This document shows positions 6,630 through 8,626 of a stretch of 31,314 nucleotides of DNA, piece after piece. Within the stretch, counting starts at the first letter, position 1, and each line of letters begins with the position of its first letter. The stretch is taken from positions 1 to 31,314 of IMG/VR virus record IMGVR_UViG_3300008452_001629, one strand, 5' to 3'. Origin of the DNA: a virus. The notes beneath the pieces were generated by a model, which saw nothing but the letters and a program-made list of their open reading frames with translations, was not told the origin of the DNA and ran no database searches. Position numbers and translations under genes: made by a program.

Positions 6630-6848
6630 ATGACAAATGACAGCCGCGAAATGGTGGATCATCCGCAACATTATCAATCTAATGGAGGCATTGAGGCAAT
6701 TGATGTGATTGAAGGATTCAACCTGAATTTTAATTTGGGTAACGCAATCAAATATATTTTGAGAGCCGATAAAAAAGGCAACAAGAAACAGGATTTGGAA
6801 AAATCCCTGTGGTATATCAAACGAGAATTAGACAAATTTCAGGGATGA
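6630..6848 (+). CDS. DUF3310 (SaV-like) protein
   Basis: A 72-residue protein with the full DUF3310 signature: DHPQHYQSNGGIEAIDVIEGF (10-30, in parts), LNFNLGNAIKYILRA (32-46) and the DLEKSLWYIKREL ending (55-67). The family is widespread in phages next to nucleotide metabolism and replication genes, and its biochemical role is not firmly known. ATG 6630 is preferred to an in-frame TTG at 6564 because the domain starts at once after it. Its stop overlaps the ATG of the broken ParB stub (ATGA at 6845-6848), showing that the ParB-methyltransferase gene originally followed directly. Confidence 0.88.
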   Translation: MTNDSREMVDHPQHYQSNGGIEAIDVIEGFNLNFNLGNAIKYILRADKKGNKKQDLEKSLWYIKRELDKFQG

Positions 6849-6907
6849 TTGAAGAAATAAACATCAAATTGGTAATTCCACATCCAAACAATCCACGTGA
6901 AAAATAA
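6845..6907 (+). pseudogene. Orphaned 5' end of the ParB-methyltransferase gene
   Basis: A 20-codon frame, MIEEINIKLVIPHPNNPREK then stop. It matches the first residues of the ParB-methyltransferase that starts at 7469: of 17 aligned residues after the Met, 14 are identical and three are Ile/Val swaps. Eight of the 14 identical residues use a different codon. The stub keeps the ATGA overlap with the DUF3310 gene, so it is the original start cut off when the homing endonuclease element arrived. The match ends after CGT (6896-6898), which marks the left edge of the insertion. Confidence 0.8.
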
Positions 6908-6942
6908 TAATTCTTCACAATCCAAGTGATTACAAAGATTAG

Positions 6943-6950
6943 TATATTTG
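6943..6950 (+). promoter_or_regulatory. Candidate -7 box of the homing endonuclease
   Basis: TATATTTG matches TAnnTTTG exactly, but lies only four bases before the ATG at 6955, which would give an almost leaderless transcript. No -33 element is evident. It may be a weak private promoter of the mobile gene or chance. Confidence 0.3.
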
Positions 6951-6954
6951 TCAT

Positions 6955-7479
6955 ATGGAAATATTTAAACCGATACCCGATTACGAGGGATTGTATGAGG
7001 CATCAAATTTTGGCAACATAAAATCTTTGAAATCAAAGCATAATAAAATAATTGTGCTGAAAAAATCAAAAGATCGTTCAGGATACGAAATTGTTCAATT
7101 GTGTAAAGATGGACACCATTCAACAAAAACGGTTCACAGGTTGGTAATGACTGCATTTTATGGATTATCTGATATGGTTGTCAATCATATTGATGGCATA
7201 AAATCAAATAATAATATTGAAAATCTTGAATATGTTTCATCATCAGAAAATTCAAGACACGCAATTGCAAATAAATTATGGATACCAAACACATTTAAAA
7301 TTGCAGAAAGTAAAAGAAAAAAGGTTTTAATGATTTGTCCTGAAAGCAATCAGATTTTAAATACATTTGAATCAGCACACGATGCAGCAAGACAAACAGG
7401 ATTTAACAGGGGTAATATTTCAACAGGTTGCAGATTAAATAAAATATTTTATGGCAGAAAATGGCAATATGGGAGTTGA
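6955..7479 (+). CDS. NUMOD4-HNH-NUMOD1 homing endonuclease
   Basis: A 174-residue site-specific endonuclease of the free-standing phage HNH type. NUMOD4 (about 3-28) reads FKPIPDYEGLYEASNFGNIKS. The HNH_3 domain (about 58-100) has VHRLV with His61, VNHIDGIKSNN with Asn77, His78 and Asp80, and NIENLEYV. A C-terminal NUMOD1 DNA-binding segment (about 124-172) contains ILNTFESAHDAARQTGF and ends GRKWQY. All parts are intact, so it is probably active. Its stop overlaps the methyltransferase start (ATG 7469) by 11 bases. The gene has more AT-rich codons than its neighbours. Its target is inferred to be the ParB-motif coding stretch that it separates. Confidence 0.93.
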   Translation: MEIFKPIPDYEGLYEASNFGNIKSLKSKHNKIIVLKKSKDRSGYEIVQLCKDGHHSTKTVHRLVMTAFYGLSDMVVNHIDGIKSNNNIENLEYVSSSENSRHAIANKLWIPNTFKIAESKRKKVLMICPESNQILNTFESAHDAARQTGFNRGNISTGCRLNKIFYGRKWQYGS

Positions 7480-8626
7480 GGAAGTCAATATAAAACTAAT
7501 TATTCCACATCCGAATAATCCTAGAACAATTGTTGACCACAAATTCAAAAAATTGGTGAAGTCCATAAAGGAGTTCCCAGAGATGTTACAATTGCGCCCA
7601 ATCATCGTGGATGATAATTGTGTGGTGTTGGGTGGGAATATGAGATTGCGTGCCTGTATTGAAGCCGGATTGAAGCGTGTGCCAATTATTAAGGCATCGG
7701 CATTGACACCAGAACAACAGAAACGTTTTATTATTACAGACAATGTTGGATTTGGTGAGTGGGATTGGGATATTTTGGCCAATGAATGGGATCAGGATGA
7801 ATTGATTGATTGGGGTTTGGATTTGCCTGTGATGGACATTATTGATGCAGGAACAGCAAATGAGGATGATTATGATGCACCTGATGGTGGATTAGAAACC
7901 GACATTGTTTTGGGTGATTTATTTGAAATTGGGCCACACAGATTATTATGTGGTGATTCAACAGATGCTGATGCTGTTTTTAAACTAATGAATGGTGAAA
8001 AACCTGATATGGTATATACTGATCCACCTTATGGAATAAATGTTGTAAAAAATGACATGGTTGGTGCTGATTTTGGTATTGCAAAAAAAGGCAATTATAA
8101 ACCAATTGCTAATGATGAAACCAAAGATATTGCACAAGAATTTTATCAAACCTGTGTGAGTTTAGGAATGAATCAATTTATAATTTGGGGAGGTAATTAT
8201 TTTACAAATTTTTTACCATTTAGTGATGGATGGTTAATTTGGAACAAAAGAGCAGGAACTGATATTAGAAATACTTTTGCTGATGGGGAGATGGCTTGGT
8301 GTAGTTTTCATACACCAATAAGAATATATGATCAATTGTGGAATGGTATGATAAGAGAGGGAGAAAAAGAAAAAAGAGTACATCCAACACAAAAACCAAT
8401 TAGAATGTTGTCTGAAATAATTGATGATCATATTAAAGGAAAATTAATATATGATGGATTTTTAGGTTCAGGATCAACAATGGTTGCTTCACATCAAAAA
8501 AATAAAATATGTTATGGTGTAGAAATGAGCCCTGATTATTGTCAGGTTATAATTGACCGAATGAAAAAACTTGATCCTAGTTTAGTGATTAAGAAAAATG
8601 GCGAGATTTACGAATCAGATAAATAA
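7469..8626 (+). CDS. ParB-like nuclease domain / DNA adenine or N4-cytosine methyltransferase fusion
   Basis: A 385-residue two-domain protein. Residues about 1-95 are a ParB/Srx-like domain (NIKLIIPHPNNPR, a central IKEFPEML, then GGNMRLRACIEAG at 55-67). Residues about 145-365 are an N6-adenine/N4-cytosine methyltransferase of the beta arrangement: DMVYTDPPYGI (180-190, catalytic DPPY at 185-188) comes before the SAM-binding FLGSGST (331-337), with HPTQKP at 305-310. ParB-methyltransferase fusions are frequent in phages and usually lack a partner restriction enzyme. ATG 7469 is chosen because it aligns with the orphaned start at 6845; ATG 7451 in the same frame would add MAENGN. The first 19 codons are recoded relative to the stub. 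The methylase part is more AT-rich than the ParB part. Confidence 0.92.
   Translation: MGVEEVNIKLIIPHPNNPRTIVDHKFKKLVKSIKEFPEMLQLRPIIVDDNCVVLGGNMRLRACIEAGLKRVPIIKASALTPEQQKRFIITDNVGFGEWDWDILANEWDQDELIDWGLDLPVMDIIDAGTANEDDYDAPDGGLETDIVLGDLFEIGPHRLLCGDSTDADAVFKLMNGEKPDMVYTDPPYGINVVKNDMVGADFGIAKKGNYKPIANDETKDIAQEFYQTCVSLGMNQFIIWGGNYFTNFLPFSDGWLIWNKRAGTDIRNTFADGEMAWCSFHTPIRIYDQLWNGMIREGEKEKRVHPTQKPIRMLSEIIDDHIKGKLIYDGFLGSGSTMVASHQKNKICYGVEMSPDYCQVIIDRMKKLDPSLVIKKNGEIYESDK

Follow-up and report, generated by a model that had tools for sequence, protein, structure and literature searches.

How can a homing endonuclease gene stand inside the coding region of another gene, with neither an intron nor an intein, and leave that gene working? 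The question is raised by a 31.3-kb metagenomic virus contig of IMG/VR (IMGVR_UViG_3300008452_001629; the window, 31,314 nucleotides (nt) in all). The order at the locus is: DUF3310, a 20-codon stub, a NUMOD4/HNH_3 endonuclease gene (HNH gene), a gene encoding ParB-N and N6/N4 methyltransferase domains (ParB-methyltransferase gene), a small terminase-like gene and the large terminase gene. All window features described are on the + strand. The unit formed by the stub, the HNH gene and the new start is best explained as a whole by a free-standing HNH element that homed into the start of the ParB-methyltransferase gene and was copied with a diverged donor flank. This reading of the sequences is considered very probable; for the architecture and origin of the unit, taken separately, confidence is a little higher still.

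The stub and the original gene start

The stub (6845-6907) reads MIEEINIKLVIPHPNNPREK* and is truncated after NPR. Its ATG (6845-6847) overlaps the TGA stop of the DUF3310 gene (6846-6848; ATGA), and it ends at TAA (6905-6907) after 20 codons. The copy located after the HNH gene (new copy) reads VEEVNIKLIIPHPNNPR from 7475. The two peptides share 14/17 residues, the three others being Ile/Val exchanges; codons differ for eight of the 14 shared residues, and the DNAs agree at 36/51 nt (71%). Their similarity score is 88 (BLOSUM62, local), against a 99th percentile of 40 and a maximum of 48 for 600 random placements.

Relatives were taken from 66 contigs found by a search with the terminase protein. 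In nine that lack the HNH gene (L005-L010, L015, L017, L018), the ParB gene begins right at the DUF3310 stop and the ATGA overlap is kept. The stub DNA (6845-6894) matches their true gene start over 48-50 nt at 98-100% identity (48/48 nt in most). Homology ends at 6894; as CCACG(T) is present in some relatives too, the join, the left junction of the imported unit, was placed within 6895-6899, in the P-R codons of NPNNPR. The DUF3310 gene (6630-6848; Pfam PF11753, E-value 2.6e-19) adjoins the ParB gene upstream in these nine relatives too.

Judged by these alignments, the ParB-methyltransferase gene originally began with the stub. The initial annotation, made from the window only, had identified it as the original start by its ATGA overlap and had given the counts of 14/17 and 8/14, which are exact; the nine relatives agree, since their starts match the stub directly after DUF3310. 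An HNH-less relative carrying the recoded start after DUF3310 was looked for, and none was seen for the ParB gene. The further claim that the HNH element displaced the 5′ end of the gene and supplied a new start is supported by the HNH-less relatives.

The HNH gene (6955-7479; 174 amino acids (aa)) is intact and full length. Both of its Pfam domains, NUMOD4 (1e-13) and HNH_3 (1e-13), exceed the curated cut-offs (51.4 bits against 23.4; 51.1 against 24.8). The structure of I-HmuI (PDB 1U3E, chain M) is matched over nearly the whole length (E-value 4e-14), and the VHRLV, VNH, NLE, N and H motifs or residues are invariant across 10 relatives. The nearest relative (56% aa identity) comes from another phage (L193), where it occupies the same ParB site. 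By sequence, the protein is an ordinary I-HmuI-like HNH enzyme. Intein: ruled out, as the stub stops at TAA 6905 and the HNH gene has its own start and stop. Group I intron-encoded enzyme: joining the flanks would duplicate the start (the gene has its own ATG after the HNH gene, and codons 2-18 are repeated); Rfam was not searched. A spliced intron at this insertion is thus disfavoured because of the stub and the duplicated start.

The imported unit

The replacement start corresponds to codons 3-24 of the new copy (7475-7540; 22 codons) and is diverged from every allele compared. It differs from the closest relatives at 20-22/66 nt, the next 84 nt at 2-5. In terms of identity to the nearest backbone relatives, 44-46/66 nt are followed by 79-82/84 nt just downstream (Fisher P 2e-7 to 1e-4). 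The right border of the diverged tract lies at 7541 in the codon alignment: past 7540, identity to close HNH-less relatives jumps back to 97-98%. Over 330 nt, the differences from the nearest relative (L018) number 21 up to nt 66 and 10 in the 264 nt beyond. Of the 862 close HNH-less pairs compared, a single one has as many as 15 differences within the first 66 nt and few outside them; 21 is not reached by any. Replacement of the whole gene by a distant ParB-methyltransferase gene is ruled out, as close-relative identity resumes at 7541. The diverged tract exceeds the 17 duplicated codons: codons 20-24, absent from the stub, are altered from LIKDD to TIVDH. Comparison of these sequences shows an imported unit of about 6895-7540, made up of the HNH gene and a 66-nt foreign start.

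The ATG of the new start (7469) falls within the 3′-terminal part of the HNH frame (..TGG CAA TAT GGG AGT TGA; ATGGGAGTTGA, 7469-7479), so that the enzyme and the replacement start would be inherited as one unit. A similar overlap is found in L193 (TGGCAATATGAATATTAA; ATGAATATTAA) and in elements of VRR-NUC genes (CAATATGCGTAA; ATGCGTAA). The restored ParB-methyltransferase gene (7469-8626; an alternative in-frame ATG is possible at 7451) retains both domains (Pfam ParB_N, PF02195, 4e-6; N6_N4_Mtase, PF01555, 7e-16). Its new start differs from all 195 distinct ParB starts compared, and the TIVDHKF peptide occurs naturally in the closest allele (L103, 54/66 nt). An exact search of IMG/VR with a 24-mer of the new start gave no match, nor did a search of isolated-phage DNA.

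The 3′ part of the gene is variable. In most relatives, the ParB domain (~119 aa) matches and the methyltransferase domain is absent (window 7830-8626 compared with L007, L008, L011, L015 and others); where it is present, its middle is strongly different. This suggests, at the level of sequence, that the methyltransferase or its specificity is exchanged among relatives.

Parallel cases and rival explanations

HNH loci were scanned for a peptide before the HNH gene resembling a peptide after it. L193 has its own stub and diverged restart at the same NPNNPR site of a ParB gene, with a sister HNH enzyme; its peptide score (46) is borderline alone, and the case is carried by the shared site and the sister enzyme. 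The VRR-NUC gene carries an HNH gene in L010, L020, L034 and L067: native codons 1-18 continue in frame into the HNH gene, after which the whole VRR-NUC gene follows. Its new start is altered over 34 codons, 16 past the 18-codon stub, with a sharp return to identity afterwards (in L010, 33/102 differences in the patch against 11/321 after it, P 4e-14). This patch is found in 4/4 HNH-bearing alleles and, in full, in 0/32 HNH-less alleles, and no donor lineage was found for it. In one HNH-less VRR-NUC allele (L100, 4001-4102), codons 1-18 are native and codons 26-34 resemble those of the HNH-linked replaced start; the allele may be a natural recombinant or the footprint of a lost element.

Other cases affect a small HNH-nuclease gene (L167, L437, L439), a dUTPase-like gene whose stub likewise runs on in frame into the HNH gene (L212), a helicase-like gene (L311) and terminase genes (L256/L378, L198/L380, L264 and seven more contigs). 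In the terminase genes, a stub ending at the Walker A motif precedes the HNH gene and the new start. As 22 HNH-less contigs have the new-type terminase start as their ordinary start (61-71/75 nt identical to the new copy, against 45-52/75 for the stubs), the replacement would be a natural allele from another lineage.

About 6/80 diverse viral HNH loci gave a hit (including L193 and the C-terminal case L214), and 1/80 genome-contig loci (L311 being the only clear case). The 22 named-phage regions surveyed, all with NUMOD4-HNH genes, gave no case; their top borderline score (L291, 46) looked like chance or an HNH-HNH match. The two start copies are 49-74% identical in DNA across the parallel cases and never above ~74% in the copies checked; near-identical DNA duplicates would have been caught, since the scan used peptides. 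In L214 (1605-2376), a cysteine-cluster nuclease-like gene has the HNH gene at its end and, after that, a diverged copy of its own C-terminus (GEDTKC..CPV..FCP). This may be a mirror case, a phage counterpart of the C-terminal mobile elements of fungal mitochondria discussed below.

The following events are proposed. The HNH enzyme would recognise the conserved start of the ParB-domain gene (NPNNPR codons) and would break or nick the recipient there. The HNH gene and a short donor flanking tract would be copied into the recipient, whose own 5′ end would persist ahead of them as a non-functional stub. The imported tract, encoding nearly the same protein in different DNA, would give the gene a new functional start, and recombination with the recipient would resume about 66 nt downstream, in conserved sequence. 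We infer active cleavage and the exact cut site from these comparisons.

Concerning the origin of the divergence, the initial annotation had preferred a recoding of the new copy that arose as protection, and had mentioned flanking DNA from a diverged homologue as an alternative. The preference is now reversed: an element travelling with flanking DNA of a diverged homologue would best explain the origin, since the divergence outruns the stub (by five codons in the window) and the terminase new starts are natural alleles. In-place recoding would imply that the recipient's own start was duplicated and the copy then rewritten synonymously under selection to escape the enzyme. The changes are indeed mostly synonymous or conservative, both ParB cases are altered in their shared core CCAAACAATCCA, no recent near-identical duplicate is found among the copies checked, and silent recoding served escape from another HNH enzyme (PMC11620839). 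However, divergence passes the end of the duplicated segment in the window and in VRR-NUC (codons 20-24 of the ParB gene are altered though outside the stub, so that a conversion tract fits, and not an in-place rewrite), the terminase new start is an ordinary allele of HNH-less phages, and no intermediate state was seen; in-place recoding is therefore rated unlikely. The stub might also be kept for a job, such as a leader peptide or a translational coupler feeding ribosomes to the HNH gene. It retains the ATGA coupling to DUF3310 in the window, and in VRR-NUC and L212 the HNH gene borrows the start of its target through an in-frame fusion. However, the stub has a stop and the HNH gene starts by itself tens of nt later in the window, in L193 and L167 and in most of the terminase cases; as remnant status suffices as explanation, such a job is quite improbable.

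Homing with co-conversion of a donor flank has several points against it. The donor lineage of the ParB patch was not found among the 195 natural starts. At this ParB site, an element with a clear stub is found only in the window and in L193 (= L461), and the exact insertion of the window is known from one metagenomic contig. Moreover, a few more distant HNH-less ParB pairs (L386/L391, L167/L178, L442/L450) show a milder divergence localised at the start, which indicates that start patches can exist without an HNH gene being present now. Such pairs, together with the high mosaicism of these phages between DUF3310 and the terminase genes, where other small open reading frames (ORFs) are found, are also what could be expected if the HNH gene had landed by chance beside a ParB gene acquired by ordinary recombination, the stub and the HNH gene being unrelated. 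Against such a chance mosaic, many independent cases in different genes, far above background, have a stub whose end lies at the HNH gene or shortly upstream of it; a sister HNH gene occupies the same site with the same overlap; and the full VRR-NUC patch is restricted to the HNH-bearing alleles. A chance mosaic is accordingly judged extremely improbable.

Short divergent patches are also found at or near the NPNNPR target codons in ParB genes without an HNH gene at their start (L067, 4404-4502; L386/L391). They are perhaps resistant alleles or footprints.

The junction sequence CCAAACAATCCA is common to both ParB stubs; the restarts are CCGAATAATCCT (window) and CCTAATAACCCA (L193), with three mismatches each. 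CCAAACAATCC is the commonest natural form in the clade of the window (26/47 alleles). Because of the divergence, the new copy is probably shielded from the enzyme, and deletion by recombination between the repeats is probably prevented. That protection is its selected function is thought somewhat more probable than the opposite; natural divergence may simply have been filtered by the needs of protection and stability. To escape recognition by gp210, an HNH enzyme of phage PhiPA3, a target gene carrying 17 silent changes was used, and a single substitution lowered nicking (PMC11620839).

Additional observations were made in other contigs. The Walker A codons of the terminase genes are interrupted by ~36-40 non-coding nt (for example, GGT ACA TCT TCC TCG, the gap GTTTAACCCCCATTGCTTCGGTGGTGGGGGTGAGAT, then TCA AAA ACA) in L256, L198 and about 30 more contigs (L375-L378, L380, L381, L384-L386, L388-L394, L396, L397, L399-L408, L412, L414, L415, L417, L418). 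Features of the gap: an immediate in-frame TAA, a C5/G5 hairpin and matching codons on both sides (TCG/TCA, GCT/GCA). Its length can be 36 or 37 nt and is thus no fixed multiple of three. In nine of the gap-bearing contigs, an HNH gene and a replaced terminase start are located just upstream. By its sequence, the gap resembles a translational bypass element of the T4 gene 60 kind. A different P-loop gene, in L409 (position 6090, pattern-strand orientation; YGGAA, gap, AGGGKS), is interrupted by this hairpin gap motif too, which suggests that the gap could be mobile between unrelated terminase-like genes.

An intein-like insert of the large terminase (from ..GGTR/CLKGDTL.. to ..IISHN/SGKT..) is found in L037 (3434-3946), L038 (5420-5932), L039 (2961-3473), L061 (2432-2944) and L069. 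It holds an HNH endonuclease in a shifted frame, with 0 stops in both frames and 19-21 in the third. The same DNA apparently encodes both intein and endonuclease, an arrangement that the diverged L061 has preserved. Another NUMOD4/HNH gene is located immediately upstream of DUF3310, where the preceding gene ends, in the same phage family (L022, 4250-4756; L024, 975-1481; L067, 3480-3986).

Comparison with known systems

Taken together, the cases make it somewhat likely that an unnamed and widespread class of phage HNH elements homes into the first ~15-25 codons of conserved genes and rebuilds them with a start carried by the element itself, the end of the endonuclease frame serving also as the new gene start. 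The constant DNA divergence of stub and replacement would then provide both immunity to self-cutting and stability against excision. This would explain the insertion of intron- and intein-free homing endonuclease genes inside coding regions with the gene left working. If so, repeated invasion would reassort 5′ ends among phages in their genes for terminases, nucleases, methyltransferases and nucleotide metabolism. The signature (short stub, HNH gene, diverged restart) would reveal the target gene, the near-exact insertion site and, presumably, a resistant allele from sequence alone, so that the specificity of the HNH enzyme is directly testable. In annotation, orphan ORFs of 15-25 codons upstream of HNH genes, and unusual starts of the genes downstream, are to be expected as remnants. 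No phage element with this arrangement was found in the literature searched (open-licence full texts).

The free-standing homing endonucleases of T4-like phages (seg, mob) have their flanking DNA co-converted by break repair (PMC2988022). They share with the window a free-standing gene (of the HNH type in the window) and a conserved target gene. However, their insertion and cleavage sites are usually separate and their target genes are whole or split in two (PMC2988022), whereas in the window the cut would fall at the start of the target, which donor DNA would then restore. Particular to the window element are the 5′ piece of the recipient that stays behind and the location of part of the new start within the HNH frame. 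In T4 (mobA, gene 60 bypass) and in Aeh1 (mobE in nrdA), a homing endonuclease gene is located in a coding region and the gene still works (PMC2988022, PMC5009743). These insertions split the gene or add a bypassed insert; a diverged copy of the start, such as the window element brings, comes with neither of them. The bypass-like gap of the terminase relatives recalls T4 gene 60. I-HmuI of Bacillus phage SPO1 belongs to the same NUMOD4 and HNH family as the window enzyme but is encoded in a self-splicing group I intron (PMC2988022).

The closest likeness is to the mobile ORFs (mORFs) of fungal mitochondria (Allomyces macrogynus atp6; Glomus sp. atp6, atp9, cox2 and nad3), in which an endonuclease gene is inserted with a duplicated, diverged piece of the target gene (PMC3630166). 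There, the native piece is 91-98% identical to relatives in DNA, the imported piece is 64-81% identical in DNA and 94-100% in protein, and transfer from a diverged homologue was the explanation given (PMC3630166). Likewise, the native terminus in the window matches HNH-less relatives (50 nt, 98-100%, nine relatives), and the imported terminus is diverged in DNA (36/51 nt) and conserved in protein (14/17 aa, the rest Ile/Val). The two systems differ in the end that is swapped: N-terminus (5′ end) in the window, C-terminus in fungi, where the native C-terminus is the remnant; the window element thus acts as a mORF does but falls outside the set described. They also differ in that the window system is found in phages, involves an HNH/NUMOD4 enzyme and has an HNH frame overlapping the new start codon. 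By analogy, the window element may be viewed as a start-of-gene, phage mirror of the fungal mitochondrial mORFs: the logic is alike; the gene end, the enzyme family and the genomes differ.
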